Origin: Maribacter sp. ACAM166
GTDB lineage: Bacteria > Bacteroidota > Bacteroidia > Flavobacteriales > Flavobacteriaceae
Length of the DNA: 64,000 bases
Reading direction: 5' to 3'
Assembly (NCBI RefSeq): GCF_005771495.1
Contig: NZ_VAUW01000009.1
Span: 1-64,000 of the forward strand
Part shown: positions 45,798-64,000 of the stretch, one piece after another
How positions within the stretch are numbered: position 1 is the stretch's first letter
Layout: the number at the start of each line of letters is the position of its first letter
Program-made: the position numbers and the translations under genes
The notes under the pieces: model-generated
What the model saw: the letters and a program-made list of their open reading frames with translations, nothing else
The model's database searches: none
What the model was told of the DNA's origin: nothing

Positions 45798-45999
45798 AGG
45801 TGAAATCTAGTAGTGATTTAGACCAAAGTTTCCCCAGCGGCCTTAAAGAATTATCGTATATTTTAAAATATTCATTATCAGCATAAAACTTCCCCTAAGA
45901 TGCATCCTTACCATTTAAAAATTGCGTGTACGCTTAGTTCATATTGGACATTATTTCAATTTAGTAAAAGAATATAACCATCAAATTAAACCCATCTTC

Positions 46000-46335
46000 A
46001 TGAGTAACTCAAGTAAAAATTGGTCCAAGCATGAACTGAAAATTTATCTATTATTACTTTGTGCACAAGCAGATTCTGTGCAGACAGAAGATGAGCTAGA
46101 AATAATAAAACACAAAACCAACAGCGACACCTTTGCCTCTATTTATCAAGAATTTAAAATGGATGATGAGGATACCAGCATAGAAAAAATAGAGACATCT
46201 ATTGGTAGACTCGAATTTAGCCAGATGGAATTGGCCGATTTAAAGAAAGAATTCAATGAATTGTTCCATTCGGATAAGAAATTCTCTGCTGCCGAACACT
46301 ATTTGGTTAAGATACTTGACAACATCTTGTACTAA
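46000..46335 (+). CDS. Small helical protein, possibly TerB-like (111 aa)
   Basis: ATG 46000 (MSNSSKNWSKHELKIYLLLL) is the better start; the frame is open further upstream to a possible start at 45922, but that part is not family-like. The protein is all-helical with CAQADSVQTEDELEIIKHKT and acidic FKMDDEDTS, then FHSDKKFSAAEHYLVKILDN. The pattern recalls the TerB fold but lacks a clear metal motif, so I leave the function open. It ends 77 bp before the large kinase gene. Confidence 0.55.
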   Translation: MSNSSKNWSKHELKIYLLLLCAQADSVQTEDELEIIKHKTNSDTFASIYQEFKMDDEDTSIEKIETSIGRLEFSQMELADLKKEFNELFHSDKKFSAAEHYLVKILDNILY

Positions 46336-46412: not shown

Positions 46413-49400
46413 ATGAAACCATCAAAAAAAACTAAAAGACAGGTAATAGAGGTTTATAACAAATGGCTGCACAGCTACTTAAACGCTGATGTCACCACCT
46501 ATGATTCCTATTTTGATGATGCGTATCACTTTATAGGCTCTACCCTAAACGAAGAGTTTTTAAATAGAGCTTCAACCACACAATTCTTTGCCGAAACGGC
46601 TGATCAACTTGCAGGTAAGTGTGATTTAAGGAATGAAACATTGACTATAGAGCAGTTTGGTGAACTCATATTCATCACCCACGTTTTTGATGCCTGGTTC
46701 AAAATTGAAAAGGACTGGAATTTTTATGGTAGGTTTAGGTTCTCTAGCACCCTTCAAGAAAAAACAGCAGGTTGGCGTTTTATCTACCAACATTTCTCGA
46801 CACCCGATACAAGAGCTGAAGAAGGTGAAACCATAGCTTTCGAAAAAATTAATACCGAAAATCAAGAATTAAGGCATGCCGTTAAACGCCGTACTTTAGA
46901 ACTCGAAGATAAAAACCGTGAGCTGGAAGTTGAAGGTGCCTTAGGACGTATACGTACGCAAGCTATTGCAATGAAACAGTCCAGCGACTTGCTAAATATT
47001 GTAGTGACCATGCGTAATGAATTCATAAAACTCGGTCACGAAGCTCATTATTTCTGGCACATGATGTGGTTGCCAAAAACCTATGAAAAGGCCATGACAT
47101 CTGGCGATGGTTCCAAAATAGGTTTTGTAATGGAGTTACCAAGACATATTCATGGGGATATTCCACTATTGGCAAAATGGGAAAAAAGTAAGGAATCTAC
47201 AGTGGTTTATGCGATGGATGCCGAAGAAGCCATTGACTATGTAGATAAAATGGTGAGTCTTGGAGATTTTAAAAACATAGACCCACAAGCCCCTACTAAT
47301 GATGATATTAAACATATTGGCGGACTCACATTCATTATGGCACGTACTAGTCATGGCGAAATAGGCTATAGCTTACCCGGTGTTGTCAATAATTCACCAA
47401 AAGAGGATATTGAAATACTAATACAGTTTGCAAAAGCTTTTGACCTTGCACATCAACGTTTCTTAGATCTTCAAAAATCTGAAAAGCAAGCCAGAGAAGT
47501 TCAAATTGAACTATCTCTAGAAAAAGTAAGAAGCCGCACTATGGCTATGCAACATAGCGATGAACTTGCACAAACTTCATTTTTATTAGATAGTCAAGTA
47601 CGAGGTTTAGGAATTAAAACTAGAGGATGTGCCTTTAATATTTATAATGTAAATGATTCTACAGAATGGTTTAGTTCAGAACAGGGTACTATGCCAACGT
47701 ACCAAACACCTAGAGAAAATATTTTCCTAGACTATTATGAAATAGGCCAAAGTGGGCAAGTAATGCACATTCAGAATTTTGAAGGTGAAGACTGCGCCAA
47801 ACATTATGAATATATGTGTAAACTCCCTGTAATGGGAGAGGCACTTAGAAAACTTGAAGATAGTAGCAGTTCTTTTCCTGCTAATCAAATAGATCATGTT
47901 ATTTATTTTAAATACGGGTATTTACTTTTTATCACCTTAGAACCCGTCCCAGAAGCCCATGATATTTTTAAACGCTTTGCCAAAGTTTTCGAGCAAACTT
48001 ACACACGTTTCTTAGATCTTCAAAAAGCAGAATCGCAAGCTAGAGAAGCTCAGATTGAAACTGCCTTAGAAAAAGTAAGAAGCCGAACAATGGCTATGCA
48101 AAAAGGGGAAGAACTCCAAGATGTTGTGGTTCTTCTGTATAAAGAACTTATTGCTCTTGGTGTTACCAACTTTGCTAGTTGTGGTTATGTAGAAATAAAT
48201 GAAAAAACCAAAAGACAAGCAACTTGGGTTACCAATCCTGGTGGAGATTCTTTAGGTTTATTTCATCTACCGTTAACTGGAGATGTCCATTTTGATGCAC
48301 GTTACGACGCATGGAAAAAACAACAACCGGTTTTCCACCAAACAGTAGCGGGAAAAGAGAGAAGAAAACATTTAGAATATGCCATTACCACATTTAATTC
48401 TAAGGAGGCTGAAGAAATGGTTAGAAACCAGTTTCCTGACCCTACTGTATTTTATTGTTTTAATTTTTCTCATGGCTATTTGCATCTAGTTTCTAGTTCT
48501 CAACTTACTCAAGACGAAGAGAACTTACTAGCTAGATTTACAAGAGTTTTTGAACAGACTTATGCCCGTTTCCTTGACCTACAAAAAGCAGAAGCACAAG
48601 CACGAGAAGCTCAAATAGAAAATGCTCTGGAAAAAGTACGCTCCCGTACCATGGCTATGCAACACAGTAATGAATTGCCAGAAGCTGCAAACGATCTCTT
48701 TTTACAAGTTCAAGCTTTAGGTATACCTGCATGGAGCGCTGGTTATTGTATTTGGGATAAAGACAAAAAGAATGCAACTGCCAACATGAGTAGCGAAGGT
48801 GTTGTTCAAAAGCCATTTGTTTTACCTATTGTTGGTGTGGGTTACGATTTTCAAAAACCGTTGCAAAATGGAGAGTCTTTTCATATTGATGAACTAGGCG
48901 GAGATGCTATCGTAAAGCATTACGAGTTTATGCGTACCCTTCCCATTTTTGGTGAAGTAATTGATGGTATTCTTGAAGCCGGTTTTCCTTTGCCTACATT
49001 CCAAATATTCCATATTGTATATTTTGATTACGGATATGTCATGTTTATAACCTATGAAACTGTACCAAAAGCGCATGATATTTTTAAGCGTTTCGGAAAA
49101 GTATTCGAACAAACCTACACGCGTTTTCTAGACCTGCAAAAAGCAGAAGCTCAAACAAAAGAAGCCCAAATTGAAGCAGCATTAGAAACTGTACGGTCGC
49201 GTTCCCTTTCCATGCAAAAACCAGATGAATTACAAGAAGTAGTTGCAGTAGTTTCTGAAAAGTTAAAGGACCTAGGTATTGTAATGGATGCTGGCGGAGT
49301 AATTATCTGTACTTATTTCAAAGATTCTAAAGATGTAATACACTGGATTGCATCACCAGATTATTCTCATTCAGGGAAATACCTTGTACCTTATTTTGAT

Positions 49401-50636
49401 CATCAAATTTTTAGGGATACTTGGGAGTCAAAAAACAATGGGGACGAATGGTTTTCAAAATCCTATTCGGTTGAGGAAAAAAACAGCTTTTTTACACATT
49501 GTTTTGAGCATAGTGATTACAAACATTTTCCTGAGGAAATAAAAGAACTCGTTCTTAAAAAGAACCACCATACCCTTTCTTTTGCTTGGAACGAACATTC
49601 TGCAATTTTGGTGCCTTCTCATACCAAAGATTTGGTTCCTTCTCAAATGGAAAAGGAAATTCTTATTCGTTTCGCCAAAGTTTTTGAACAGGCATACATC
49701 CGCTTTATGGATTTGCAGGTGAAAGAAGAGCAATCAACAGCACTTCTTGAAGAAAAGCAACGACTAGAAAAAACTTTAAAAAATCTCCAAGAAACGCAAA
49801 AACAATTGATACAAGCCGAGAAAATGGCAAGCCTAGGAGAACTTACAGCTGGCATCGCCCATGAGATTCAAAACCCATTAAACTTTGTCAATAATTTCTC
49901 TGAAGTAAGTAATGAACTTATTGATGAAATGAATGAGGAACTAGATAAAGGGGATCTTGAAGAAGTGAAGGCTATTTCATTGGATATCAAACAAAACCTA
50001 GAAAAAATTAATCATCACGGTAAACGTGCTGAGGGTATTGTAAAAGGTATGTTGCAACATAGTAGAACAAGCACAGCAGAAAAAGAACCTACGGATATTA
50101 ATAAGTTGGCAGATGAATATTTACGACTAGCATACCATGGATTACGGGCAAAAGATAAAAGTTTCAATGCCGAATTAATAACCGATTTTGATGAAAACAT
50201 TGGGAAAGTAAACGTAATACCCCAGGATATGGGTCGGGTAATTCTCAATTTAATTACCAATGCTTTTTATGCGGTAAATGAGAAATCTAAATCTGGAATG
50301 GTAGGTTACCAGCCAACTGTGACGGTTTCTACCAAACGAACTCCCTTCCTAGGAGAGGTTGAGGGTGGTTCTCAACTTGTACAAATTTCTATTTCCGATA
50401 ACGGTAACGGTATTCCTAAAGCAATCGTCGATAAAATATTCCAACCCTTTTTTACCACCAAACCAACAGGGCAAGGAACCGGATTAGGACTAAGCATGAG
50501 TTATGATATTGTGACCAAGGGGCATGGTGGGGAGCTTAAAGTAGAGACTAACCAGGGAGCAGGTACTACCTTTATAATAGACCTACCCATACAGAACAAA
50601 GTTCACGCTGACGCTATAAAAAAATCTCAAATATGA
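46413..50636 (+). CDS. Giant soluble histidine kinase: NTF2-like domain, five GAF-like units, transmitter
   Basis: This 1407 aa kinase has no membrane helix. An NTF2/SnoaL-like domain covers about 8-130 (YNKWLHSYLNADVTTYDSYF to WRFIYQHFS). A coiled coil leads to five tandem units of about 185 residues, each opened by a motif like ALEKVRSRTMAMQHSDEL (near residues 175, 367, 550, 737 and 921) and closed by FAKVFEQTYTRFLDLQKAEA. A coiled coil is followed by HisKA with the acceptor His1150 in GIAHEIQNPLNF. HATPase has NLITNAFYAVNEK, ISDNGNGIPK and GTGLGLSMSYDI. It starts the kinase array; the next gene overlaps it by 4 bp. The repeats probably sense small ligands or serve in dimer signalling. Confidence 0.9.
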   Translation: MKPSKKTKRQVIEVYNKWLHSYLNADVTTYDSYFDDAYHFIGSTLNEEFLNRASTTQFFAETADQLAGKCDLRNETLTIEQFGELIFITHVFDAWFKIEKDWNFYGRFRFSSTLQEKTAGWRFIYQHFSTPDTRAEEGETIAFEKINTENQELRHAVKRRTLELEDKNRELEVEGALGRIRTQAIAMKQSSDLLNIVVTMRNEFIKLGHEAHYFWHMMWLPKTYEKAMTSGDGSKIGFVMELPRHIHGDIPLLAKWEKSKESTVVYAMDAEEAIDYVDKMVSLGDFKNIDPQAPTNDDIKHIGGLTFIMARTSHGEIGYSLPGVVNNSPKEDIEILIQFAKAFDLAHQRFLDLQKSEKQAREVQIELSLEKVRSRTMAMQHSDELAQTSFLLDSQVRGLGIKTRGCAFNIYNVNDSTEWFSSEQGTMPTYQTPRENIFLDYYEIGQSGQVMHIQNFEGEDCAKHYEYMCKLPVMGEALRKLEDSSSSFPANQIDHVIYFKYGYLLFITLEPVPEAHDIFKRFAKVFEQTYTRFLDLQKAESQAREAQIETALEKVRSRTMAMQKGEELQDVVVLLYKELIALGVTNFASCGYVEINEKTKRQATWVTNPGGDSLGLFHLPLTGDVHFDARYDAWKKQQPVFHQTVAGKERRKHLEYAITTFNSKEAEEMVRNQFPDPTVFYCFNFSHGYLHLVSSSQLTQDEENLLARFTRVFEQTYARFLDLQKAEAQAREAQIENALEKVRSRTMAMQHSNELPEAANDLFLQVQALGIPAWSAGYCIWDKDKKNATANMSSEGVVQKPFVLPIVGVGYDFQKPLQNGESFHIDELGGDAIVKHYEFMRTLPIFGEVIDGILEAGFPLPTFQIFHIVYFDYGYVMFITYETVPKAHDIFKRFGKVFEQTYTRFLDLQKAEAQTKEAQIEAALETVRSRSLSMQKPDELQEVVAVVSEKLKDLGIVMDAGGVIICTYFKDSKDVIHWIASPDYSHSGKYLVPYFDHQIFRDTWESKNNGDEWFSKSYSVEEKNSFFTHCFEHSDYKHFPEEIKELVLKKNHHTLSFAWNEHSAILVPSHTKDLVPSQMEKEILIRFAKVFEQAYIRFMDLQVKEEQSTALLEEKQRLEKTLKNLQETQKQLIQAEKMASLGELTAGIAHEIQNPLNFVNNFSEVSNELIDEMNEELDKGDLEEVKAISLDIKQNLEKINHHGKRAEGIVKGMLQHSRTSTAEKEPTDINKLADEYLRLAYHGLRAKDKSFNAELITDFDENIGKVNVIPQDMGRVILNLITNAFYAVNEKSKSGMVGYQPTVTVSTKRTPFLGEVEGGSQLVQISISDNGNGIPKAIVDKIFQPFFTTKPTGQGTGLGLSMSYDIVTKGHGGELKVETNQGAGTTFIIDLPIQNKVHADAIKKSQI

Positions 50637-53600
50637 AATCATTAAATGTAGTAACAACCAAAGAAGTAAAAATGGCTTTGAATACTAGTTCCCAAGTGAA
50701 CTTAAACGTATTAGGGATGTTTATTTCCGTACTTTCAATGCTATATTATAGTACGCCCGCGTACGCCCAAATCAACGCTAGTAAAGGCGTTCCTAGCTTT
50801 ACGAACTATGTAATAGGTGATGACACCCCAGCAGGCCAGCAGGTTTGGAATGTAGGCCAGGACAAGGAGGGATTTATTTACACAGGAACTTCGACCGGTT
50901 TACAAAAATTTGACGGGGTAAACTGGAAAATACTAAGTTCTCCTTTACAAGACTATAATACTAATGTAAGAACAACCTACCTATCTTATGATGGTACGTA
51001 TTATTATGGATCAATTAGCGATTTTGGAATCGTTTCCACAGATTCCTTCGGTACTTCTTTGCTTACATCCTTGATTGACTTGTTGCCCGAGGAAATTCCA
51101 TTTAATGATATCTGGACGATTAGGGAGGTTAAGGGAAAAATCTACTTCCAATCCCGCGAAGCCATCTTTATTTATTCCCCGGACGCGGAAGACCAAGACC
51201 AATCAATTCGTATTTGGAAACCAGATACCGATTTTATGTATGCCTTCTCCCTAGATGATACCTACTATACCCATCAAATGGAACTTGGTTTATTTAGGGA
51301 GAATAATGGAAAATTAGACTTGATTCCAGGTAGTGAATTTTTTGGTCAAGATCGGGTACAAGTACTTCTTCCGTATAAAACTCCAGGGGAGTTTCTAGTG
51401 GGGGCCTTTGCAGGTGGTCTTTATCATTTTGACGGAGAAAATTTTAATCCATTTAAAACCGAAATTGACTCACTTCTACAAGCAAGAAGTTTATACAAAG
51501 CGTTGGCCTTACCAAATAAAACGTATGCAATCAGTGTTTTAGGAAGTGGTTTTTTTATCATTGATCAAGAGGGTAATGCGCTATCCCAGTATACTACCAA
51601 AAACTCTATCACAGACCAAAGCGTTTATGCCTTTTTCCTGGATAATACTCAAAATCTGTGGGTAGGCACAAATGCCGGACTTTCTAAAATAGAGCTTTTT
51701 TCGCCGGTTACTAGATTTGATTCTGACCAATATGAAGTTGGGAACGTGCTTTCTTTAAATGCCTACGGAGATGATTTATACATCGGTGGATCAACTTCGA
51801 TACTTTATATTGATCAAGCGGATGGTGTAATCAAAAAAGTTAAAAATATCACCAATACCCAGGTTTTTGATTTACAACAAGATGAAAATCAGCTCATATC
51901 TTCAGGGCCAGGACTCTATGAGATACAAAAAGATCAAGCTAGATTGATCCCAGGGACAGAATCGTTTCAAACGGTTGAACTTTTAATCTCTAAAAAGTAT
52001 CCGGGCTATGTTTTTATTGGCGGAGCCTTTGGCGCACACATGTTTAAGCGAACTGCAAATTCGTCTGGGGTCTATGAGTACGAATCTATCGGCCCTATAC
52101 CTGGAGTTACTAAGTCAATCTATACCATTGTTGAAAACAATTTGGGCGAAATCTGGATGGGTACACAGGCCGGCGCTATGTACAGAGTTCAAATTCCAAA
52201 AACGGCTTCAGGAAACCTAGATATTTCAAATACTTTAGTTAAAGAGTACAACGATAAAGATGGCATAAAAGGACTCTCTGGAACTGCGGTAGTAATTGGA
52301 GGAAAAGTGTATACCTCTGGCATCGAAGGCTTTTTTTACTTTGATATTTCGTCCGAATCCTTTAAAAAGGATACCATATTCAGTTTTTCCGACGAAATCG
52401 CTGATATCAATCTGGACACTTACGGGCTGGGTGGCAATCAATTTGGAGATGTTACGCTTGACTTTAAAGGAGAAAAAAGATTGGCCAAACTGCAACCTGA
52501 TGGTAGCTATATCTTGCAAGAGTATCCCTTCAATTTAATTACCGCCAGCTTTTCAAATTCAGGTTATACAGAACCTAGCGGTGTTTTTTGGTTTGGCACA
52601 GATGAGGGATTATTGCGATTAGACCCGAACATGGCCTACAAAACCGACTACCCTACACCCTTGTATTTCAACGCCGTTAATTCCGGAGATGAGCTCATGA
52701 CCTTACCAGAATTCCATGGAGATACTGTTCCTGAGCTATTGTATAAAAACAATAACATCAGCTTTACCTATGTATCCCCATTTTTCGTCAAGGAAAATAG
52801 GATGCAATACCAAACCTTTTTAGAAGGTCTTGATGAAGATTGGGGTGATTGGGAGAGTAAGACTTCTCGCGAATTCACTAGTCTCCCTTTTGGCACGTAT
52901 ACCTTTATAGTCAAGGCAAAAAACACTTTTGGTACCATCTCTGAAGAAATCGCTTACGCTTTTGAGGTACTACCTCCATGGTATGCCACATGGTGGGCCT
53001 ATATTTTATATTTGTTAGGTTTAGGCCTCATAATTTATGGATTGGTTAAAATACAGACTAAAAGCATACTTGCCAGGGAGAAAGCGAAGAATCAAGATAA
53101 GGAACTGGCTCAGGCCAAAGAAATTGAAAAGGCTTATACCTCGCTTAAAGAAACCCAAAGCCAATTGATTCAATCTGAAAAGATGGCAAGTCTTGGGGAA
53201 CTTACAGCTGGTATAGCGCACGAGATTCAAAACCCATTAAACTTCGTTAATAATTTTGCTGAAGTAAACTCTGAGCTTATTGAAGAAATGAAGGAAGAAC
53301 TAAACAACGGGAATTTACAAGAAGTACAAAGTCTCGCTGATGATATTAATGAAAACGAGAAAAAAATAATATTTCATGGCAAGCGTGCCGATTCTATTGT
53401 AAAAGGGATGCTCCAACACAGCCAAAACAGCAATGGAAAAAAAGAACCAACCAACATCAATTTGCTAGCTGACGAATATTTAAGATTGGCTTATCATGGC
53501 TTACGTGCCAAGGACAAAGAATTTAATGCGGATATGGAAACTGATTTTGATGACAGCATTAAAACGATCACTATCATCCCTCAGGATATCGGTCGTGTAG

Positions 53601-53935
53601 TTTTAAACTTGGTAACCAATGCTTTTTATGCCGTCAATGAGAAAGCTATCGCTGCCAAAGCTTCAGGAGATACAACCTACAAACCCATAGTATCGTTAGC
53701 GACAAAAAAGAAAAAGAACAGCGTCGAAATTACGGTCTCAGATAATGGAAACGGAATTCCAAATAAAATTGCAGATAAAATATTCCAACCCTTTTTTACG
53801 ACCAAACCTACCGGACAAGGAACCGGATTAGGACTAAGCATGAGTTATGATATTGTGAAAGCGCATGGCGGAGAATTGGAGGTAGAAAGTAAAAAAGGAA
53901 TCGGTACAAAATTTTTGATCCTAATACCCGCATAG
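50633..53935 (+). CDS. Propeller/Y_Y_Y sensor histidine kinase
   Basis: This is a 1100 aa membrane kinase. A hydrophobic export segment (about 26-46) precedes two regulatory propellers (about 50-700) built of repeats such as VWNVGQDKEGFIYTGTSTGL, NLWVGTNAGLSKIE and GEIWMGTQAG. The Y_Y_Y domain (about 705-780) ends in FEVLPPWYATWWAY, then a membrane helix (about 786-805). A coiled coil leads to HisKA with His863 in GIAHEIQNPLNF and a complete HATPase (SDNGNGIPNK, GTGLGLSMSYDI). It resembles the input half of Bacteroides hybrid two-component systems but has no receiver or AraC domain. It overlaps the upstream kinase gene by 4 bp. Confidence 0.93.
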   Translation: MKSLNVVTTKEVKMALNTSSQVNLNVLGMFISVLSMLYYSTPAYAQINASKGVPSFTNYVIGDDTPAGQQVWNVGQDKEGFIYTGTSTGLQKFDGVNWKILSSPLQDYNTNVRTTYLSYDGTYYYGSISDFGIVSTDSFGTSLLTSLIDLLPEEIPFNDIWTIREVKGKIYFQSREAIFIYSPDAEDQDQSIRIWKPDTDFMYAFSLDDTYYTHQMELGLFRENNGKLDLIPGSEFFGQDRVQVLLPYKTPGEFLVGAFAGGLYHFDGENFNPFKTEIDSLLQARSLYKALALPNKTYAISVLGSGFFIIDQEGNALSQYTTKNSITDQSVYAFFLDNTQNLWVGTNAGLSKIELFSPVTRFDSDQYEVGNVLSLNAYGDDLYIGGSTSILYIDQADGVIKKVKNITNTQVFDLQQDENQLISSGPGLYEIQKDQARLIPGTESFQTVELLISKKYPGYVFIGGAFGAHMFKRTANSSGVYEYESIGPIPGVTKSIYTIVENNLGEIWMGTQAGAMYRVQIPKTASGNLDISNTLVKEYNDKDGIKGLSGTAVVIGGKVYTSGIEGFFYFDISSESFKKDTIFSFSDEIADINLDTYGLGGNQFGDVTLDFKGEKRLAKLQPDGSYILQEYPFNLITASFSNSGYTEPSGVFWFGTDEGLLRLDPNMAYKTDYPTPLYFNAVNSGDELMTLPEFHGDTVPELLYKNNNISFTYVSPFFVKENRMQYQTFLEGLDEDWGDWESKTSREFTSLPFGTYTFIVKAKNTFGTISEEIAYAFEVLPPWYATWWAYILYLLGLGLIIYGLVKIQTKSILAREKAKNQDKELAQAKEIEKAYTSLKETQSQLIQSEKMASLGELTAGIAHEIQNPLNFVNNFAEVNSELIEEMKEELNNGNLQEVQSLADDINENEKKIIFHGKRADSIVKGMLQHSQNSNGKKEPTNINLLADEYLRLAYHGLRAKDKEFNADMETDFDDSIKTITIIPQDIGRVVLNLVTNAFYAVNEKAIAAKASGDTTYKPIVSLATKKKKNSVEITVSDNGNGIPNKIADKIFQPFFTTKPTGQGTGLGLSMSYDIVKAHGGELEVESKKGIGTKFLILIPA

Positions 53936-53995
53936 AAATTTGGAATTATAATAGTTAGCTTAACTTTTTATCTTTTTTTTTAAAAAAATAATACT

Positions 53996-56900
53996 ATGTT
54001 GAATTCGATTTATTCCCTTTTGAAAAGTGGCCATCTCATTTTTTGTGTTTGCATTTGCTTTCTTTTTTTTAGCGAAAAATCTTATTCTCAAGCTAGTGAG
54101 GAAATTGGAATTCCACTAATTACGAATTATCCAACTTCTGAATATGGAGGGAACGGGCAGGTTTGGGCTATCATTCAAAGCAATGACCAATTGATGTACT
54201 TTGGAACTTCTACAGAGATTATGGAATTTGATGGCATCAATTGGAGGCAGATTCGTATTCCTGATTATCCCACTGGGGTATCAACAAGAGGGCTCGTGAT
54301 GGATGATGAGGGTGTTATTTTTTATGCATCCGGCGGAAGTTTTGGGTATCTGAAAAGAAATGAATTTGGTAATCGAGAAGCAGAATCTTTGAAATACTTA
54401 ATCCCAGAAGATAAGCGAGATTTTGAAGAAATTTGGTCAGCACATTATGACGGAGAGTTTTTGTATTTCCAATCTCGAGAATACCTTTTTAGGCTATCGT
54501 ATGATTTGTCTGCGGGTGAATTTGAACTGAAAACTTATCCTGCCTACAGTACGTTTTCCCTTGGCTATATAATCCATGGGGAATATATCATACATGACAT
54601 TAAAACCGGTCTGCACAAAATGGTCGATGGAGAACTTGAGCTAATAGAAGGAAGTGAAGTTCTTGCTGGAGATAGGATGTTCACTGTGGTTCCGCATTCG
54701 GATAACCCTGTAACGGGTAAAAAGCAATTTTTAGCGGGTAGGTTTTATCAAGATTTTTATAAGTACGACGGAGAGAAATTTGAAATTTTTGAAAGTGAGC
54801 TTAATCAGTATACGAAGACCAATCTTCTTTATAAAAGCGCCCTTCTTTCCAATGGGAATCTAGTGGCATCAATCATTGGAATGGGGCTCGTCGTGGCAAG
54901 CCCTGAGGGCAAATTGTTAAACATTTTATCCGCTGATCAAGGACTTCAAGACCCTTCGGTCTATTCTGTCTTTGTGGATCAAGACCAGACCGTTTGGGTT
55001 GGGTTGGACAATGGTATTTCAAAGCTACAGCTAAATTCTCCGATCAGTACTTTTACTAAGAATCAAGGGGTTAATTCAACCATTTACGCCATTACTCGAG
55101 CTGGCGGACAATTGTACATTAGCTCTTCCATTGGTCTTTATAATTATGACGCTGCCACGAAAAAATTTATTCCAATTCCAGAATTAGGTAACATTCAGAT
55201 TTGGAACTTGGTGGTCGATGGCGATGATTTGCTTGTACCTGGAGAAGTCTTTTCGATGATCCGAGATGGAAGAATTCTTCCCATTGACCCCAATACTAGT
55301 GGAGGTCAAGACTTGATGATATCGCCTTCCAATCCAAACCTTTTATACATATCCATTCCTGGTGGACTGAGGATTTTCACTAGAAAAGGAGATTTTTGGG
55401 AAAAATTTGTTGACTTAGAAGGAATGCCTAATACGATTTGGACCATAGCTGAAAGCGTGGATGGAACAATTTGGGGAGGTACCCAAACGAATATGGCATA
55501 CAGGATTACCCCCGCTTATGATGAAAACGGCCTTCCAAAAGTCATCGATTATAAAATCAAAATATTTGGTGTTGAGGAAGGTTTGGTCAATTCTCCTGGA
55601 TATTTAGGTGCGATTGATGGTGAAATCTTTTTCCCTTCCTTTGGGGCTAGCTTGCGCTACGATCCTAAAACCGAAACAATCGTTCCTGATGACAGATTTG
55701 GAATGATACCAGACAATCTGGGGCTTACTGACGGTTTTTTTATGAAAGAGGACTCCCAAGGCCAAGTTTGGATTCCCATTGGCAATAAGCTAAGACTAGC
55801 GACCCCTGATCCAGACAAAACCTACATCATCGAGGAAAATCTCTTTAATGACTACCCTTATCAAAGTGTGAATGGACTATATTCCGAAGAGGATGGTATT
55901 GTTTGGATTGGAAGTGGGCAAGGTTTGCTTCGCTATGATCGTTCCGTTTCTTCTATACCTAAGACTAATTTTCCAGTGATGATGCGAGGTGTTTTTGCTG
56001 GATCTGATACACTCAATCATCTCACACAGGGAATTGATGATGATTTGGTAGATTTGCCCTATTCCCAAAACTCACTTCGCTTTACCTATGCTGCCCAGTT
56101 TTTTCAGCAGGAACAGCGAACTACCTATCAAACTTTTTTAGAAGGATTTGAATCTGATTGGACAGATTGGAACAGGAGCTCATATAAAGAATACACTAAC
56201 CTTTCTTGGGGCACTTATACCTTCCGAGTACGAGCTAAAAACGTCTTCAATGAAATAGGAGAGGAAGTAATGTATACCTTCGTAATTTCTCCTCCTTGGT
56301 ATGCAACTTGGTGGGCTTATCTATCCTATTTACTATTATTTGGGTTACTTGTAGCACTAATAAGTCGTACCCAACAAGCAAAAGTAATCAACAAAGAAAG
56401 ACAGCATGCCGCCCTGCGCGAAGCGACGTTAAAGGCAGAAGCTGAAAATGATAGACGAAAAAATATTGAATTGATTAGTGAGATTGGCAAGGATATTACC
56501 AGTTCGCTTTCTATCGAAAACATAATTGATACTGTATATCTGCACGTTAATAAACTCATGGACGCCTCGGTATTTGGAATTGGAATTTACAACAGATCAG
56601 ATAAAACGCTACTGTTTCCTGCTACAAAAGAAAAAGGAAGCGTTTTGCCTCCATATAGCTATAGTTTAGAGGATAAAAATAGACTGGCAAATTGGTGCTT
56701 TAAAAATCAAAAAGAGATACTGTCTAATGACTTCGAGAATGATTACCAGCTATATGTCGAGTATATTCAAGCTACAGCAGCAGGAGAAGATACCCAGTCC
56801 ATCGTCTACCTACCGCTAATTAATAAAGGTAAAATAATAGGTGTTCTCACCGCTCAAAGTTTTTCTAAGAACGCATATACAGATTTCCATCAAGATATAC

Positions 56901-57745
56901 TGAGGAGTATCGCTAATTATGCTGCTTTGGCGCTTGATAATGCTGAAGCTTATAGAAATCTAAAGATTACCCAATCCCAATTAATCCAATCCGAAAAAAT
57001 GGCCAGCCTTGGAGAACTCACAGCAGGCATAGCCCATGAAATACAGAACCCATTGAACTTCGTTAATAACTTTAGTGAAGTGAGCAACGAACTCATTGAC
57101 GAAATGAATGAAGAAATCACCAAAGGAGATTTTAAAGAAGTAAAGTTTATTGCTGCGGATATCAAGCAGAACCTTGAAAAAATAAACCACCATGGCAAAC
57201 GTGCCGATGCTATTGTAAAAGGCATGCTGCAGCACAGCCGAAGCAGTGCAGGTAAAAAAGAACCTACCAATATCAATGCTTTAGCAGACGAATATTTACG
57301 ATTGGCATATCACGGTTTAAGAGCAAAAGATAAAACATTCAACGCTACACTTGAAACTGATTTTGATAAAAATATCGAACCTGTAAATACTATACCGCAA
57401 GATTTGGGCCGAGTAATTCTGAATTTGATTACCAATGCGTTTTATGCTGTCAATGAGAAGAAACAAAACGATGCGAAGTTCAAACCTATCGTTTCGGTCA
57501 GTACTAAAAAGACTGGAGGCCATTTAGAAATTACAGTCTCAGATAATGGAAACGGAATTCCAAATAAAGTCATAGATAAAATATTCCAACCCTTTTTCAC
57601 GACCAAACCTACCGGCCAAGGAACCGGATTAGGTCTAAGCTTGAGTTATGATATTGTGAAGGCGCATGGCGGAATATTAAATGTTGAATCTAAAGAAGGA
57701 AAAGGGTGCGTTTTTAAAATTTCATTACCCATTGAATCTAATTAA
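53996..57745 (+). CDS. Propeller/Y_Y_Y/GAF sensor histidine kinase
   Basis: This 1249 aa kinase is homologous to the previous one over its propellers (about 35-690) and Y_Y_Y domain (SFTYVSPFF-like LRFTYAAQFFQQEQRTTYQT), followed by a membrane helix at about 768-790. It differs by an added cytosolic GAF domain (about 822-985: SIENIIDTVYLHVNKLMDAS, then YLPLINKGKIIGVLTAQS and IANYAALALDNAEAYRNLK). HisKA has His1014, and HATPase is complete. The signal peptide region is at residues 10-31. The gap to the previous gene is 60 bp, and the next gene starts one base after the stop. It probably combines an external and an internal signal. Confidence 0.93.
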   Translation: MLNSIYSLLKSGHLIFCVCICFLFFSEKSYSQASEEIGIPLITNYPTSEYGGNGQVWAIIQSNDQLMYFGTSTEIMEFDGINWRQIRIPDYPTGVSTRGLVMDDEGVIFYASGGSFGYLKRNEFGNREAESLKYLIPEDKRDFEEIWSAHYDGEFLYFQSREYLFRLSYDLSAGEFELKTYPAYSTFSLGYIIHGEYIIHDIKTGLHKMVDGELELIEGSEVLAGDRMFTVVPHSDNPVTGKKQFLAGRFYQDFYKYDGEKFEIFESELNQYTKTNLLYKSALLSNGNLVASIIGMGLVVASPEGKLLNILSADQGLQDPSVYSVFVDQDQTVWVGLDNGISKLQLNSPISTFTKNQGVNSTIYAITRAGGQLYISSSIGLYNYDAATKKFIPIPELGNIQIWNLVVDGDDLLVPGEVFSMIRDGRILPIDPNTSGGQDLMISPSNPNLLYISIPGGLRIFTRKGDFWEKFVDLEGMPNTIWTIAESVDGTIWGGTQTNMAYRITPAYDENGLPKVIDYKIKIFGVEEGLVNSPGYLGAIDGEIFFPSFGASLRYDPKTETIVPDDRFGMIPDNLGLTDGFFMKEDSQGQVWIPIGNKLRLATPDPDKTYIIEENLFNDYPYQSVNGLYSEEDGIVWIGSGQGLLRYDRSVSSIPKTNFPVMMRGVFAGSDTLNHLTQGIDDDLVDLPYSQNSLRFTYAAQFFQQEQRTTYQTFLEGFESDWTDWNRSSYKEYTNLSWGTYTFRVRAKNVFNEIGEEVMYTFVISPPWYATWWAYLSYLLLFGLLVALISRTQQAKVINKERQHAALREATLKAEAENDRRKNIELISEIGKDITSSLSIENIIDTVYLHVNKLMDASVFGIGIYNRSDKTLLFPATKEKGSVLPPYSYSLEDKNRLANWCFKNQKEILSNDFENDYQLYVEYIQATAAGEDTQSIVYLPLINKGKIIGVLTAQSFSKNAYTDFHQDILRSIANYAALALDNAEAYRNLKITQSQLIQSEKMASLGELTAGIAHEIQNPLNFVNNFSEVSNELIDEMNEEITKGDFKEVKFIAADIKQNLEKINHHGKRADAIVKGMLQHSRSSAGKKEPTNINALADEYLRLAYHGLRAKDKTFNATLETDFDKNIEPVNTIPQDLGRVILNLITNAFYAVNEKKQNDAKFKPIVSVSTKKTGGHLEITVSDNGNGIPNKVIDKIFQPFFTTKPTGQGTGLGLSLSYDIVKAHGGILNVESKEGKGCVFKISLPIESN

Positions 57746-57746
57746 A

Positions 57747-59036
57747 ATGAACACAACCAAAGAACAAGAATTACTGCGAACCTATCAACTATTTGTGGCA
57801 TCTTTCATGGAAAATTCGTCAGTAGATGAATTGAATGATATCCTCTCCCCTGATATTATGGGTTTTGGTACTACAAGCGATGAAAAAGTTTTTGGAATAG
57901 AGGCCGTTAGAAACTTAAATGACATTGGAAAGCAACAAAAACAATCACTTGAAGATTACCACTATACTTCTAAAATTATAAAAAAGCAAATTTCTAAAAA
58001 AGGGGATGCTGCAATCATTATCACAGAAATAAATTTAGGCTATTCCATACATGAAATTAAAACGGTAATGCCGCTTAGAATTACGACCGTTCTATTTTTT
58101 GATGAAACATGGAAAGTGATTCATTGGCATGGATCATTGGGTGTTGAATCTGAAGGAGATACGTGGCATCAAAATGAATGGCAAAGAGATAATGACCGCC
58201 TACAGAAAAAGGTAGATGAACAAACTGCCGAATTAAAAAAATCATTAGTAGATTTAAAAGCCACCCAATCACAACTCATTCAATCAGAAAAAATGGCAAG
58301 CCTAGGAGAGCTTACTGCTGGCATTGCCCACGAGATTCAGAATCCCTTAAACTTCGTCAATAATTTCTCTGAAGTCAGCAATGAGCTTGTTGACGAAATG
58401 AACGAAGAACTGGATAAAGGGGATCTTGAAGAAGCCAAGGCTATCTCCTTGGATATCAAGCAAAACCTAGAAAAAATAAACCACCATGGCAAACGAGCCG
58501 ATGCCATCGTAAAAGGAATGCTGCAGCACAGCCGAAGCAATACTGGGAAAAAAGAACCTACCGATATCAATGCCTTGGCAGACGAGTATTTACGATTAGC
58601 CTATCATGGTTTACGGGCAAAAGACAAATCTTTTAATGCCCAGTTGGTAACCGATTTTGATGATACCATCGGAAACATAAATATCATTTCTCAAGATATG
58701 GGGCGCGTCATCCTCAATCTAATTACCAATGCCTTTTATGCCGTTAATGAGAAAAAGAAAGAACAGGTAGCAGGGTATGAACCTACTGTTTCCATAAGTA
58801 CCAAAAAAAATACAGATACCATAGAACTAAAAGTAACAGACAATGGTAAGGGGATACCAGAATCTGTTAAAGAAAAGGTATTCCAGCCTTTCTTTACGAC
58901 CAAGCCTACGGGCGAAGGTACTGGTCTTGGTCTTTCTTTAAGTTATGATATTATAACCAAAGGTCATGGTGGGGAATTAAAAGTAAACACCAAGCAAAAT
59001 ATAGGAACCGAATTTAGTATTAACCTGCCATTATAG
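57747..59036 (+). CDS. Small soluble histidine kinase with N-terminal NTF2-like domain
   Basis: The protein is 429 aa from ATG 57747, one base after the previous stop. The frame is open upstream into that gene, but MNTTKEQELLRTYQLFVASF is the sensible start. A single SnoaL_3/NTF2-like domain (about 8-135) ends with WKVIHWHGSLG. A coiled coil (about 145-178) leads to HisKA with His195 and to a full HATPase ending GTEFSINLPL. No membrane segment is present. It is the minimal member of the array: the same transmitter fed by one presumably ligand-binding domain of the fold that also occurs in the separate proteins at 37634-42375. Confidence 0.92.
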   Translation: MNTTKEQELLRTYQLFVASFMENSSVDELNDILSPDIMGFGTTSDEKVFGIEAVRNLNDIGKQQKQSLEDYHYTSKIIKKQISKKGDAAIIITEINLGYSIHEIKTVMPLRITTVLFFDETWKVIHWHGSLGVESEGDTWHQNEWQRDNDRLQKKVDEQTAELKKSLVDLKATQSQLIQSEKMASLGELTAGIAHEIQNPLNFVNNFSEVSNELVDEMNEELDKGDLEEAKAISLDIKQNLEKINHHGKRADAIVKGMLQHSRSNTGKKEPTDINALADEYLRLAYHGLRAKDKSFNAQLVTDFDDTIGNINIISQDMGRVILNLITNAFYAVNEKKKEQVAGYEPTVSISTKKNTDTIELKVTDNGKGIPESVKEKVFQPFFTTKPTGEGTGLGLSLSYDIITKGHGGELKVNTKQNIGTEFSINLPL

Positions 59037-59088
59037 ACAGGCAGTTTTAAGCAATAGTGTAATTTAAGACCCAACCAATTAGAACAAC

Positions 59089-62000
59089 ATGAGAATACAT
59101 AACCCATTCATAATTACTTTTATCTGTTTCATTTCCTCATTTTGTTTTGCTCAAGTACAGGAGCAACAGATTAATCCCACCTATTTAACGATTGGCGATG
59201 GCCTTGCTTCCCCAACTGTGACAGATGTTATGCAAGATAGTTATGGGCTGCTTTGGCTTGCAACTAGCAATGGCCTGCAAAAATATGACGGATATCGGTT
59301 TGAGACCTATAAACATATTCCCACGAAACCCACTAGTTTGCTTAACAATAAAGTATGGAGCCTTGCGGAAGATAACAGCCATGATATTTGGGTAGCGACA
59401 GACGATGGCGTATCTAGGTTTGACCGTGGTAACAATGAATTTATCAATTATCCGCTCGCCGAAATACTTAATTTACCATTAGGTAGTATTGTCGCTTTGA
59501 AACTCTTTATCGATTCTCAGCAACGTATTTGGGCTGCAACTACAACAATGGAGTTGGTACGCTATAATCCTGAGACGGACCAATGGAGCCTTGCAGATTA
59601 CGAAATACTTAATGAAACTAACCCAATTCATACGGGTTTTGGTATTGCAATAACCGAAGATGCCCAAGGTGGAATTTGGTTTGGGTCATCAGTACATGGC
59701 TTAATGCACATGGGCAAAGATGAAAAAACGTTTAAGCCGGTACATTCAGATACCTGGGGAGAATTTGACTTCTCAAATCCTGATAATATTATTACCTCAT
59801 TATACTCAGACACCAATAATATACTTTGGTTAACAACCCACAAAGGAGTGTACAAATTTAATCCTAAAACTGGTTTTTTAAAAACACTTATTGAATATAA
59901 AGAAGATACGAATATCATTTGGAAGAGTATGAACAGTATTTCACCTGATCAAGACGGAAATATATGGGTTGCCAATAATTTTAGGGGAATATTAAAATTT
60001 AATGGAACCACAGATACATATACCAAGGTTACCCTTGACGGAAAAATGAAAATGCAAGAATTTATGTGGGATATTACCATGACACGTTTCATTATAGATC
60101 GCAGCGGTATTTTTTGGTTTGGGTCTATTGAAGGTGGCTTATTAAAATACGACCCCGTGAACAAGCCCTTTTCCTATTTTTCACATCGTGAAGGGGATGC
60201 ACTGAGTATAAGCCCCAACGGGGTCTTTGGACTTCTTGCTTCAAAAGTAAGACCTGGAACAATGTATGTAGGATCAAGAGGTGGAGGATTGAATGTTTTT
60301 GACCCAAAAAAAAGAACGTTTGAAAAAATCACCTTTGATGTGGTAGATGATTTCTTTGGCGGATCTGTACGAAGTATTGCAGAAGATACTGATGGCACCC
60401 TTTGGTTAGGTACTTGGGGCGATGGGCTTATTGAACTGGATAAAAATTACCAAGAGCTCAACCGGTACAACTATGAAGCAAAAAATAGTAATTCCATTTC
60501 TAACAATCAAGTACGTCTCATTAAAAAAGACCACCAAGGTAAATTTTGGGTCGGCACCAATAATGGATTGAACATTTTTGACCCATCAACGGGCAACTTC
60601 CAACGGTTAGCGAGTAAAGGCAATATGCAATATCCGCAAAATTTAGTGGAAGAGTTGGAAAAATTGTCCTCCTCCAACCAAAGTATAGGGCTTATAGATA
60701 ACGTTAGAGATTTAGAAGACCGGTCTCAGCCTATAACAATAGAAACAAAAGGCACCTATTGGGTACTATCAGTTGGTGAAGGTGATACGAGAAGTATGGT
60801 AGATTATGGTTGGATCGAGAATGCCCAAAAAGATACCATCTGGAGTTTTGGTAGGAATGAGGATACCTTTTATGCCGGAGGCGGTGCCAAGAATAGGATT
60901 GTAATAGCACCCTTAACCCTTATACCAGGCTCCTATGTTTTACGTTACAAGGCCGATGATAGCCATGCCTATGAAAAGTGGAATGAAAATCCACCGAATC
61001 AAACTTCCCTATATGGTATTACGCTTATAAAACCCAAAGATGATGCCCAGACCAGCTCTTTTGAAAAACAAATTGCCGTTAACCAAAATGGTATTATCAT
61101 GGGTGGAAACAATATATCTGATATTGAAATTGGTGAAAAATATATTTGGGTCGGTGCAAGTGGTCAGGGGCTAACTAGAATTGATCCCGTAACTAATAAG
61201 GCAACCTATTATGATTATGACCCTGAAAATGAGAATTCAATAAGCAGCAATGTTATTTCAGACATCTTAGAAGATAGCAAAGGAATACTTTGGTTAACGA
61301 CAACAGAGGGAATTAATCGGCTAGACCCCGATTCTGGAAAAATTACTGTATTTACAGAAGCTGATGGCCTTGCGACCAACCTTACAGAGGCAATTTTAGA
61401 AGGTGATAACGGCGAAATGTGGATTGCCTCACAAAACGGAATTTCACAAATGGTAACCAATGAAACCTTAGGTAAAGTAACCTTTATAAACTATAATTCT
61501 TCTGATGGTATAGGCGGAGATATTTTTATACCCTTGGGCGCAGCACGAAGTTCTGACGGCACCTTTTATTTTGGTGGCAATCACGGTCTTACCACCTTTA
61601 ATAGCATTACCGCAAATAATATCTCCCCAACATTACTAATTTCGAATGTGTTAATTTCAAATAAATCGGTGCTCGATATGGGAGCGGAAAGTCCGTTGAC
61701 TGAAAGTCTTCTTAACACCGATTTGCTTAATTTATCCCATCAACAGAACAACTTAAGTTTTGAATTTTCGGCCTTACACTTTGCAAATGCAGAAAAAAAT
61801 CAATATGCCCACAAACTCATTGGCTACGATAAAGACTGGATCTATGACAACCGCAACTTTGCCTCGTATACCAATCTAGATCCAGGCAAGTATAAATTTG
61901 CCATAAGAGCCTCTAATGCCTATGGTATATGGAACGAAGATGGCAAAACCTTATCGATAACCATTTCAGCTGCTTGGTGGCAAACCTGGTGGGCCTATGT

Positions 62001-62931
62001 GTTATTTGGAGTAGTTACGGCAAGTATTTTGAGGGCTTATATCGCTTTTAGGGCTAAAAAATTGAAGAATGAAAATAAGGCCTTAGAAGAACGTGTTGAA
62101 CAAAGAACAATCGAACTAAAAAATAATATAGACCAATTAAAAGCGACCCAATCACAACTAATCCAATCTGAAAAAATGGCAAGTCTCGGTGAGTTAACCG
62201 CTGGTATTGCTCACGAGATTCAAAATCCTTTAAATTTCGTCAATAATTTCTCAGAAGTCAGCAATGAGCTTATCGATGAAATGAACGAAGAACTAGATAA
62301 AGGAGATCTTGAAGAAGCCAAGGCTATATCATTGGATATCAAACAAAACCTAGAGAGAATTAACCACCATGGCAGACGCGCCGATTCTATTGTAAAAGGA
62401 ATGCTACAACACAGCCGTGCCAGTGGTAACAAAAAAGAGCCTACGGATATCAATGCCCTGACAGATGAATACTTACGATTGGCATATCACGGTCTTCGGG
62501 CAAAGGATAAAAGCTTCAATGCTGATTTCAAGACAAATTTTGATGACAGTATTGTTTCAATACAAATAATTCCTCAGGATATAGGCCGCGTAATATTAAA
62601 CTTAATTACCAACGCATTTTATGCCGTAAACGAAAAGAAGCAACAACTGGGTGCGAACTATAAACCTACAGTACTAGTAAGTACTAAAAACGTTGGGGAC
62701 ATTGTGGAAATAAGAATTACCGATAATGGAAACGGAATATCTAAAACAGTTATAGATAAAATTTTTCAACCTTTTTTCACCACTAAACCAACGGGTAAAG
62801 GTACTGGTTTAGGTCTAAGTATGAGTTATGACATCGCAAAGGCGCATCGTGGCGAATTAAAGGTAGAAACTAGGGAAGCTGAAGGAACAACTTTTATCAT
62901 AGAATTGCCTAAATTCATAACCACCAACTAG
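59089..62931 (+). CDS. Propeller/Y_Y_Y sensor kinase with inserted beta-rich domain
   Basis: This 1280 aa kinase has a signal peptide (FIITFICFISSFCFAQ). Reg_prop repeats occur on both sides (DSYGLLWLATSNGLQKYDGY early; ILEDSKGILWLTTTEGINRL late). Between them, residues about 547-653 are not propeller-like: GTYWVLSVGEGDTRSMVDYG, then TLIPGSYVLRYKADDSHAYE and KWNENPPNQTSLYGI, probably a beta-sandwich. The Y_Y_Y domain precedes a membrane helix (about 962-985). A coiled coil leads to HisKA with His1042 and a complete HATPase. One small change in the last block reads AHRGELKVE where paralogues have HGGELKVE. The next sensor gene starts 7 bp downstream. Confidence 0.92.
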   Translation: MRIHNPFIITFICFISSFCFAQVQEQQINPTYLTIGDGLASPTVTDVMQDSYGLLWLATSNGLQKYDGYRFETYKHIPTKPTSLLNNKVWSLAEDNSHDIWVATDDGVSRFDRGNNEFINYPLAEILNLPLGSIVALKLFIDSQQRIWAATTTMELVRYNPETDQWSLADYEILNETNPIHTGFGIAITEDAQGGIWFGSSVHGLMHMGKDEKTFKPVHSDTWGEFDFSNPDNIITSLYSDTNNILWLTTHKGVYKFNPKTGFLKTLIEYKEDTNIIWKSMNSISPDQDGNIWVANNFRGILKFNGTTDTYTKVTLDGKMKMQEFMWDITMTRFIIDRSGIFWFGSIEGGLLKYDPVNKPFSYFSHREGDALSISPNGVFGLLASKVRPGTMYVGSRGGGLNVFDPKKRTFEKITFDVVDDFFGGSVRSIAEDTDGTLWLGTWGDGLIELDKNYQELNRYNYEAKNSNSISNNQVRLIKKDHQGKFWVGTNNGLNIFDPSTGNFQRLASKGNMQYPQNLVEELEKLSSSNQSIGLIDNVRDLEDRSQPITIETKGTYWVLSVGEGDTRSMVDYGWIENAQKDTIWSFGRNEDTFYAGGGAKNRIVIAPLTLIPGSYVLRYKADDSHAYEKWNENPPNQTSLYGITLIKPKDDAQTSSFEKQIAVNQNGIIMGGNNISDIEIGEKYIWVGASGQGLTRIDPVTNKATYYDYDPENENSISSNVISDILEDSKGILWLTTTEGINRLDPDSGKITVFTEADGLATNLTEAILEGDNGEMWIASQNGISQMVTNETLGKVTFINYNSSDGIGGDIFIPLGAARSSDGTFYFGGNHGLTTFNSITANNISPTLLISNVLISNKSVLDMGAESPLTESLLNTDLLNLSHQQNNLSFEFSALHFANAEKNQYAHKLIGYDKDWIYDNRNFASYTNLDPGKYKFAIRASNAYGIWNEDGKTLSITISAAWWQTWWAYVLFGVVTASILRAYIAFRAKKLKNENKALEERVEQRTIELKNNIDQLKATQSQLIQSEKMASLGELTAGIAHEIQNPLNFVNNFSEVSNELIDEMNEELDKGDLEEAKAISLDIKQNLERINHHGRRADSIVKGMLQHSRASGNKKEPTDINALTDEYLRLAYHGLRAKDKSFNADFKTNFDDSIVSIQIIPQDIGRVILNLITNAFYAVNEKKQQLGANYKPTVLVSTKNVGDIVEIRITDNGNGISKTVIDKIFQPFFTTKPTGKGTGLGLSMSYDIAKAHRGELKVETREAEGTTFIIELPKFITTN

Positions 62932-62938
62932 GGTAAGA

Positions 62939-64000
62939 ATGAAAAGAACACGATTATTGATACATCATATATTTTTTACAGGCTTCTTCTGTAGTTTAAT
63001 GCTACTTTCTTGTAACAAAGCAAGTAAGTCTGAAACTGAAACGACCATTGGTGACTATAAAACACCAGAAACCATTCCCTTAGAATTTACGGAGCCAGAG
63101 CCTTTTGAATGGGAAACCATAACCTCAGATACGCTGACAACGCCCGTAACATTTTCTTTGAATGTTGATGCGTTACCTAGCAAACCGTTTGAATTGAATA
63201 CATTCAAGCCACTGAAGACCCCCATGAAAGAATATGATTTGGATTGGGACAATTTCCCTACCGAGAAATTGAAATTTGATTCCATTCCTTTTACGGTTAC
63301 AAAATCTACCATAAAAAAGCCCACGATTACCAAAATGAGACCTCCTGGGATTTTGAAGGGCACCCATGTAAATCTGATGCAACTTTCCATAAACGAAGGG
63401 CTAAAGTCAAATTTAATCACAGCATTTTTAGAGCGTGAAGATGGCACTACATGGATTTCTACTCCCCTTTCCTTAAATCTCTATGATGGGGAAAACACAT
63501 ATACCTATGAGTATAGCCTAGTAAACGATATGACCTTAGATAGTAAAGGTAGGCTTTGGTTAGCCACGAACGGCAATGGGATGTACGTATTGGATTTCAA
63601 AAATAACATAGAATACACCATCAGTACTCCTGCTATTGCGCTTAACCTGGTTGATATACTCTACGACCATACCGGTGCCATTTATCTGGCTGCATTTAAC
63701 AATGGTATCTATACTATGGATGAAGCATTGGGTAGTTTGGAAAAACTCACCAATGAAGGTGCCAATTTACCTATCACACTTCTTGAGGATAGTGATAAAA
63801 ATATTTGGGTGGCCTTTGAAGATGGTATAGCTATAATTAATAAAGAAAGGCTAGATATTAAAACCCTTCCAGAAGATACGAGTTTTACGTTAAACTTTAG
63901 TACGGATATTAAAGAAGATAAGTCTGGGATGATTTGGTTCTGTAGTTTTCAGACAGAAGAAGTGGTTAGCCTATCCTTAAAACAGAAAAAAGCTAAACTC
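62939..64000 (+). CDS. Lipoprotein-type propeller sensor, cut by window end
   Basis: ATG 62939 starts a signal with a lipobox cysteine (FFCSLMLLSC). 354 codons remain open to the window edge. A spacer of about 150 residues rich in Thr, Pro and Glu is followed by reg_prop repeats: MTLDSKGRLWLATNGNGMYV, LYDHTGAIYLAAFNNGIYTM and IKEDKSGMIWFCSF. It is 7 bp after the previous kinase stop and clearly part of the same unit. By analogy it probably ends in a transmitter, but that part is not in the window. A lipid-linked N-terminus is unusual for a sensor kinase, though a second membrane anchor could follow. Confidence 0.8.
   Translation, partial: MKRTRLLIHHIFFTGFFCSLMLLSCNKASKSETETTIGDYKTPETIPLEFTEPEPFEWETITSDTLTTPVTFSLNVDALPSKPFELNTFKPLKTPMKEYDLDWDNFPTEKLKFDSIPFTVTKSTIKKPTITKMRPPGILKGTHVNLMQLSINEGLKSNLITAFLEREDGTTWISTPLSLNLYDGENTYTYEYSLVNDMTLDSKGRLWLATNGNGMYVLDFKNNIEYTISTPAIALNLVDILYDHTGAIYLAAFNNGIYTMDEALGSLEKLTNEGANLPITLLEDSDKNIWVAFEDGIAIINKERLDIKTLPEDTSFTLNFSTDIKEDKSGMIWFCSFQTEEVVSLSLKQKKAKL

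Follow-up and report, generated by a model that had tools for sequence, protein, structure and literature searches.

Six tandem sensor kinases that share a transmitter and have exchangeable inputs, beside a receiver pair that includes a probable adenylate cyclase, in Maribacter sp. ACAM166

Gene content of the locus

The window, i.e., the whole stretch of DNA that was analysed, comprises 64,000 nt (positions 1-64,000) of contig NZ_VAUW01000009.1 of Maribacter sp. ACAM166 (assembly GCF_005771495.1). The source genome has 4.92 Mb in 114 contigs, with an estimated completeness of 99.96% and contamination of 4.58%. The right-hand part of the window is occupied by a series of sensor kinase genes on the forward strand, K1 (46413-50636, acceptor His1150), K2 (50633-53935, His863), K3 (53996-57745, His1014), K4 (57747-59036, His195; the mechanical ORF is longer and runs from 57681), K5 (59089-62931, His1042), and K6 (62939-66571), which are separated by gaps of -4, 60, 1, 52, and 7 bp. 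An earlier note on this DNA had reported five complete kinase genes and a sixth propeller gene 7 bp further on. The coordinates, gaps, and acceptor histidines of the five were all reproduced, and the sixth gene, cut by the window edge at 64000, ends at 66571 in the same transmitter.

The statement of the earlier note that the series holds no receiver or regulator was an effect of this edge, because the window ends inside K6. Extension to the right, which the note had suggested as a check, revealed two receiver genes on the same contig (same numbering): a single-domain receiver of 124 aa (66627-67001), which starts 55 bp past K6, and, 4 bp further on, a 346-aa receiver-cyclase (67006-68046) with a receiver fused to a Guanylate_cyc domain. 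Promoter and terminator scans yielded only chance-level hits.

Input domains of the kinases

The inputs of the first five kinases differ, as had been noticed before, and the Pfam matches agree with the assigned types. K1 combines SnoaL_3 (aa 11-132) with five repeats (aa 176-1120) that match no Pfam family; K4 has SnoaL_3 (aa 21-132); K2, K5, and K6 carry propeller/Y_Y_Y inputs; and K3 has a propeller/Y_Y_Y input plus a GAF domain (aa 838-981). K1 and K4 contain no hydrophobic segment and are hence cytosolic, whereas K2 (one clear transmembrane segment, aa 786-809), K3, K5, and K6 are membrane propeller sensors. A fused receiver or DNA-binding domain was matched by Pfam in none of K1-K6.

A Foldseek search with the structure model of a K1 repeat (pLDDT 94.0, pTM 0.88) retrieved GAF proteins for the most part, phytochromes and PDE2A among them; E-values started at 2e-4, and query-based TM-scores were about 0.4-0.6. 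Since these matches mostly bear GAF domains, the five repeats of K1 are, judged by the model, GAF-like. The same list includes a cAMP-bound GAF domain (5w10, E 2.1e-3), which allows that cAMP may act back on K1 through these repeats.

A further input type occurs elsewhere, in kinases of about 700 aa (L070:9128-13417 and similar). Their inputs of about 440-450 aa have several hydrophobic segments, match no Pfam family besides the transmitter, and look 7TMR-DISM-like by eye.

Conservation of the transmitter

The 20-residue acceptor block EKMASLGELTAGIAHEIQNP shows no difference among K1-K6. In the five complete genes its positions, computed from residue numbers, are 49818-49877 (K1), 53177-53236 (K2), 56993-57052 (K3), 58287-58346 (K4), and 62170-62229 (K5), all on the forward strand. 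The whole transmitters of K1-K5 are 66-75% identical in pairs, so that the description of the module as nearly the same suits the EKMASLGELTAGIAHEIQNP block, which is identical, more than the module. HATPase_c (PF02518, cut-off 26.4 bits) scored 77.7-85.4 bits in K1-K5 and exceeded the cut-off in all six, whereas HisKA (PF00512, cut-off 26.9 bits) was exceeded by K3, K4, and K5 only, with K1 (25.2 bits), K2 (23.1), and K6 (22.6) below it. The genome has six such close transmitters, all of them within the array; the match that ranks after them has 43% identity.

An alignment of the DHp specificity residues, as the earlier note had proposed, gave a divided result. In helix 1, positions H+3 to H+8 and H+10 to H+12 are the same in K1-K6 and in 58/58 transmitters of relatives, with slight variation at H+13 and H+16; according to work on EnvZ, these positions include specificity residues. 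Helix 2 sets K2 and K6 (IIFHGKRA) apart from K1, K3, K4, and K5 (INHHGKRA or INHHGRRA).

At residues shared by the paralogues of this genome, bins near the histidine (-25 to +12) have a codon identity of 0.39-0.51 and those further on one of 0.55-0.67, and the longest identical DNA runs among them measure 12-42 bp. The low codon identity near the histidine and the short runs lend no support to gene conversion of the block among the six genes, and the identity of the block at the protein level therefore looks like selection.

A common dimerisation domain could also serve another end, namely the formation of mixed dimers, the second possibility raised in the earlier note, which would make the array a set of combinatorial sensors. 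The identical block and the 66-75% identity of the K1-K5 transmitters fit such a reading, and nothing speaks specifically against it; however, K1 and K4 lack the membrane segment present in the others, the sequence of the segment preceding DHp differs, and K2 and K6 diverge in helix 2. We regard it as unlikely.

Receiver pair and cyclase

The preferred reading, in which the six kinases feed one receiver pair, assigns the output to the receiver-cyclase, the sole PF00211 match in this genome. We compared 103 receiver-cyclases, i.e., the one found here, 22 from relatives, and 80 from contig loci (the best 80 of at least 564); a cyclase fragment (L090) was left out of the residue, downstream-gene, and correlation counts. 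The metal aspartates D176 and D220, as well as K216, D285, N294, and R298, are invariant in 103/103 cyclases, and the fused receiver keeps its phospho-acceptor D57, S85, and K107 in 103/103. K216 and D285 are presumably the ATP-selecting residues of class III cyclases; in a phmmer alignment to CyaB (3r5g) both are paired with identical residues. Pyrimidine cyclases rely on other residues, with R142 among the specificity residues of EaPycC and D94 among those of BcPycC (PMC11224242). Compared by position, these pyrimidine-recognition residues are absent from the receiver-cyclase, and Asp285 and Lys216, which precedes the second metal aspartate by four residues, occur in 103/103. By its residues, the protein is probably an adenylate cyclase.

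Other class III cyclases are frequent among relatives (PF00211 in 75/149). The Maribacter genome also encodes one CYTH protein, which could be a class IV cyclase, and has nine matches to the cyclic-nucleotide-binding family, potential receivers of cAMP. Fusions of a receiver with a cyclic-nucleotide-binding domain (359-374 aa) were seen at L035, L037, and L039 (C61, C51, and C79 of this genome), at the latter two directly behind a kinase gene.

Co-occurrence and synteny

Among 149 related genomes, the receiver-cyclase (E<=1e-30) was found in 24, as a single copy in each; within the genus it is present in 17/36 genomes, including the one studied here. The transmitter (E<=1e-60) occurs in 23/24 genomes with the receiver-cyclase and in 0/125 genomes without it (within the genus, 17/17 versus 0/19), and Fisher tests on this distribution take no account of shared ancestry. 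In the 24th genome (G040), the cyclase is no more than a fragment of 143 aa. All of the 22 relatives' loci that were read have at least one such kinase upstream, one of them (L082) just a fragment. The number of kinases is six in Maribacter sp. ACAM166 and up to four in the relatives' loci read; with nine matches on four contigs in G072, six is no record.

A scan of named genome contigs across the phylum gave at least 564 relatives of the receiver-cyclase. The best 80 of these were read with flanks of up to 10 kb (two loci, L085 and L103, probably belong to one genome), and all are apparently Bacteroidota by record title. Within these best 80 of at least 564, 62 loci offer more than 5 kb of upstream sequence, and 61 of them have at least one kinase whose transmitter matches those of the six Maribacter kinases at >200 bits; the one exception with room upstream is L145, and at L163 the kinases lie on the opposite strand. 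One, two, three, four, and five kinases were counted in 31, 23, 11, 4, and 4 loci, respectively, and none in 7 (best 80 of at least 564).

The earlier note had proposed a shared and distant regulator. Co-occurrence, synteny, and the helix-1 positions bear out the first half, and the convergence of many inputs on one shared regulator is, as far as comparative sequence data go, well supported. A distant regulator is ruled out, as the regulators adjoin K6, the first of them beginning 55 bp behind it.

In a rival reading, the array would mainly drive the single-domain receiver, which would act on another target, with the receiver-cyclase as a neighbour that has its own input. The single receiver lies directly upstream of the receiver-cyclase in 72/80 contig loci (best 80 of at least 564; four of the other eight are at contig ends), and kinase identity tracks it more than the receiver-cyclase (partial correlations of 0.50 versus 0.22 over 89 loci, uncorrected for phylogeny), so that it could be the main partner. 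Against this, four loci without the single receiver (L105, L124, L166, and L173) retain kinase and receiver-cyclase, none of the 149 genomes has the transmitter without the receiver-cyclase, and the cyclase's receiver has kept its phospho-acceptor throughout. In L105, L124, and L173 the kinase stands immediately before the receiver-cyclase, which suggests direct phosphotransfer. We consider an array that largely bypasses the cyclase improbable and retain the reading with cyclase output.

Exchange of inputs between transmitters

All 58 transmitters entered the tree (a cut at 200 aa or less removed none), with the L082 kinase fragment left out. K6 groups there with 12 other receiver-proximal kinases and kinase 2 of G006 (14 rows, support 100/97). 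The members of this group differ in input: two dissimilar types of propeller occur, as well as two 700-aa kinases that have several hydrophobic segments. The tree shows the transmitter beside the receiver staying in place while the inputs change.

The same can be followed in pairs. Inputs are at least 85% identical in 38 cross-genome pairs, whose transmitters are less than 80% identical in 10, 80-90% in 7, and at least 90% in 21; conversely, among 83 pairs with transmitters at least 93% identical, 40 have unlike inputs. The ten discordant pairs collapse to three kinases, namely kinase 1 of G008 (G008_1), kinase 1 of G025 (G025_1), and K5 of this genome with its counterpart G006_3. G008 kinase 1 is 98.9% identical to kinase 2 of G011 in its input and 70.7% in its transmitter, whereas its transmitter is 96.1% identical to that of G011 kinase 1.

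Of the eight triples analysed, four switch within 50 nt of the histidine codon, i.e., G008_1, G025_1 (with two donor choices), and G006_3. The switch lies at -49 to -43 nt in G008_1 (167/170 sites to the left, 207/224 to the right), at +18 to +29 nt in G025_1 (173/184 and 171/204), and at -19 to -18 in G006_3 (147/154 and 148/199), which joins the K5 input to a K2-like transmitter, so that the K5 acceptor block (62170-62229) is also the crossover region of this input between the two genomes. A fifth triple, G003_2 with donor G025_1, switches at +11 to +14 and represents the G025_1 event again. Other cases misfit a simple picture of junctions near the histidine: when closer donors are taken, the switch falls at -94 to -85 in G003_2 and at -115 to -112 in G027_3, G023_2 with donor G004_3 switches only at +605 to +621, and a comparison of G008_2 with G011_3 reveals a patch exchanged within the ATPase domain (+420 to +540). 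The alignments show three distinct mosaics in which inputs have moved from one transmitter to another and the junction lies close to the acceptor codon. From these mosaics we infer that recombination between neighbouring kinases swaps the inputs.

Downstream genes and PycTM

PycTM (PF18967, 56-58 bits, cut-off 27.2) is encoded immediately downstream of the receiver-cyclase in 14/22 relatives' loci, as a protein of 186-208 aa, and one further locus has an HD gene and then PycTM. Of the contig loci (best 80 of at least 564), 16 have PycTM directly after the receiver-cyclase, 14 have HD-YitT, and 12 have HD, two loci end at an edge, and the remaining 36 have none of the three within the next three genes. 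In the HD-YitT loci (L116, L145, and 12 others), the position of PycTM is occupied by a YitT-type membrane protein with a fused HD domain. In Maribacter sp. ACAM166 PycTM (79872-80492) follows the receiver-cyclase at a distance of 11.8 kb and is itself preceded by an HD gene (78532-79134).

A PycTM of the >200-bit type was found in 26/149 relatives, i.e., in 21/24 genomes with the receiver-cyclase and 5/125 without it (the weakest of this set is that of G010, E 1.6e-60). Three of these five (G010, G012, and G032) have a different cyclase within about 3.3 kb, and in G059, G060, G075, and G083, weaker relatives of PycTM are neighbours of other PF00211 proteins. PycTM in general was rejected as a specific partner, as PF18967 occurs in 93/149 relatives and only the >200-bit type tracks the receiver-cyclase. 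In G012 and G032 (L176 and L177), an M28 peptidase, PycTM, and an epimerase occupy what seems to be the same site, from which kinases and receiver-cyclase are absent. From the gene order PycTM is a plausible target of the array, PycTM or CRP-type proteins being candidate targets of cAMP, and the HD proteins are possible phosphodiesterases.

Pycsar, as its systems are presented in PMC11224242, consists of a PycC cyclase with PycTM or PycTIR. The locus resembles it in having a class III cyclase beside a PycTM protein in many relatives, and it differs in its two-component control, its adenylate-type residues, and a PycTM that is not universal. A kinase-triggered Pycsar relative, in which the cyclase would activate PycTM and growth would stop, would account for the frequent PycTM neighbours and for the distribution of the >200-bit type. 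Lys216 and Asp285 are, however, of the adenylate type, the pyrimidine-recognition residues given for PycC (PMC11224242) are missing, 36/80 contig loci (best 80 of at least 564) lack PycTM, HD, and HD-YitT among the three genes that follow, and the Maribacter PycTM is 11.8 kb away. Defence therefore appears an improbable role.

Proposed mechanism and known systems

We consider it likely that the six kinases, which share one transmitter with exchangeable inputs, feed one receiver pair with a class III cyclase output, probably adenylate. The cytosolic (K1 and K4) and membrane propeller sensors (K2, K3, K5, and K6) would autophosphorylate the histidine of EKMASLGELTAGIAHEIQNP, and the phosphate would pass to the single-domain receiver and/or to the receiver of the receiver-cyclase, as synteny, co-occurrence, and specificity residues suggest. 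Phosphorylation would then, to judge from the conserved residues, alter cyclase activity and cAMP. For the single-domain receiver, a role as competitor, sink, or adaptor is a guess. Among the features of a two-component system with cyclase output, the kinases have an acceptor histidine and an ATPase domain, and the receiver-cyclase joins a receiver that has its phospho-acceptor to a cyclase domain that keeps the catalytic residues.

That the array is a tandem duplication lacking shared regulation, each kinase having a separate distant partner, is highly improbable: the 60 receiver domains of the genome mean that other partners could exist, but the co-occurrence (23/24 versus 0/125), the identical helix-1 residues, and the lack of any regulator gene between the kinases argue against it. 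Of the results that the earlier note had named as contrary to convergence, neither dedicated regulators, looked for beside each kinase, nor different helix-1 residues were seen.

As a signalling module of Bacteroidota, the convergent array appears to be undescribed; full-text searches of an open-licence PMC set returned no description of such a module, and NCBIfam gave no name over cut-off among the matches listed. CyaC-type phosphorelay adenylate cyclases of cyanobacteria were reportedly described by Kasahara and Ohmori in 1999. CyaC is one hybrid protein whose receiver controls a class III cyclase. Both systems place a receiver-controlled class III cyclase in a two-component path; unlike the single hybrid CyaC, the present one has kinases (up to six), a receiver-cyclase, and a single-domain receiver in separate genes. 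In the Spo0 phosphorelay and the Gac/Ret/Lad network, several kinases act on one receiver, and these kinases are scattered or arranged in relays. The likeness lies in several sensors with one output, whereas here the kinases form a tandem array beside the output and their inputs are exchanged. Hybrid two-component systems of Bacteroidota have propeller sensors as well, similar to K2, K3, K5, and K6 in the Reg_prop and Y_Y_Y inputs, but the fused receiver and DNA-binding domain are missing from K1-K6.

If the convergent reading is right, many signals meet at the probable main source of cAMP in these bacteria; the figures of a 2005 census for four genomes of the phylum include no adenylate cyclases (PMC1183210). 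The array also provides naturally chimeric kinases, joined close to the acceptor histidine, as a model for the exchange of inputs with partner specificity kept. A wider reading, which we put forward tentatively as less probable than its converse, is a Bacteroidota-wide plug-in mode of sensing, in which inputs recombine near the acceptor block, transmitter and receiver-cyclase stay fixed, and cAMP opens or activates PycTM. If it holds, PycTM would be cAMP-responsive in ordinary signalling, besides being pyrimidine-responsive in phage defence. Through the PycTM link, a role of this effector family outside Pycsar becomes testable.

Accessory genes

Genes for proteins of 379-411 aa with a MKAKSI-like start, FIST sensor-like as judged by eye, precede a kinase with a short input at L085, L086, L088, L099, and L102, with one or more such genes per locus. 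Upstream of K1, a small protein of 111 aa is encoded at 46000-46335 on the forward strand (ORF 45922-46335, likely start 46000); it matched no Pfam family and is TerB-like by eye only. Its homologues were found in 7/23 loci of relatives and in 3/80 contig loci (best 80 of at least 564), and in these 10 loci they lie upstream of the kinases or behind PycTM, by which the gene may tentatively be counted as a member of the kinase module.
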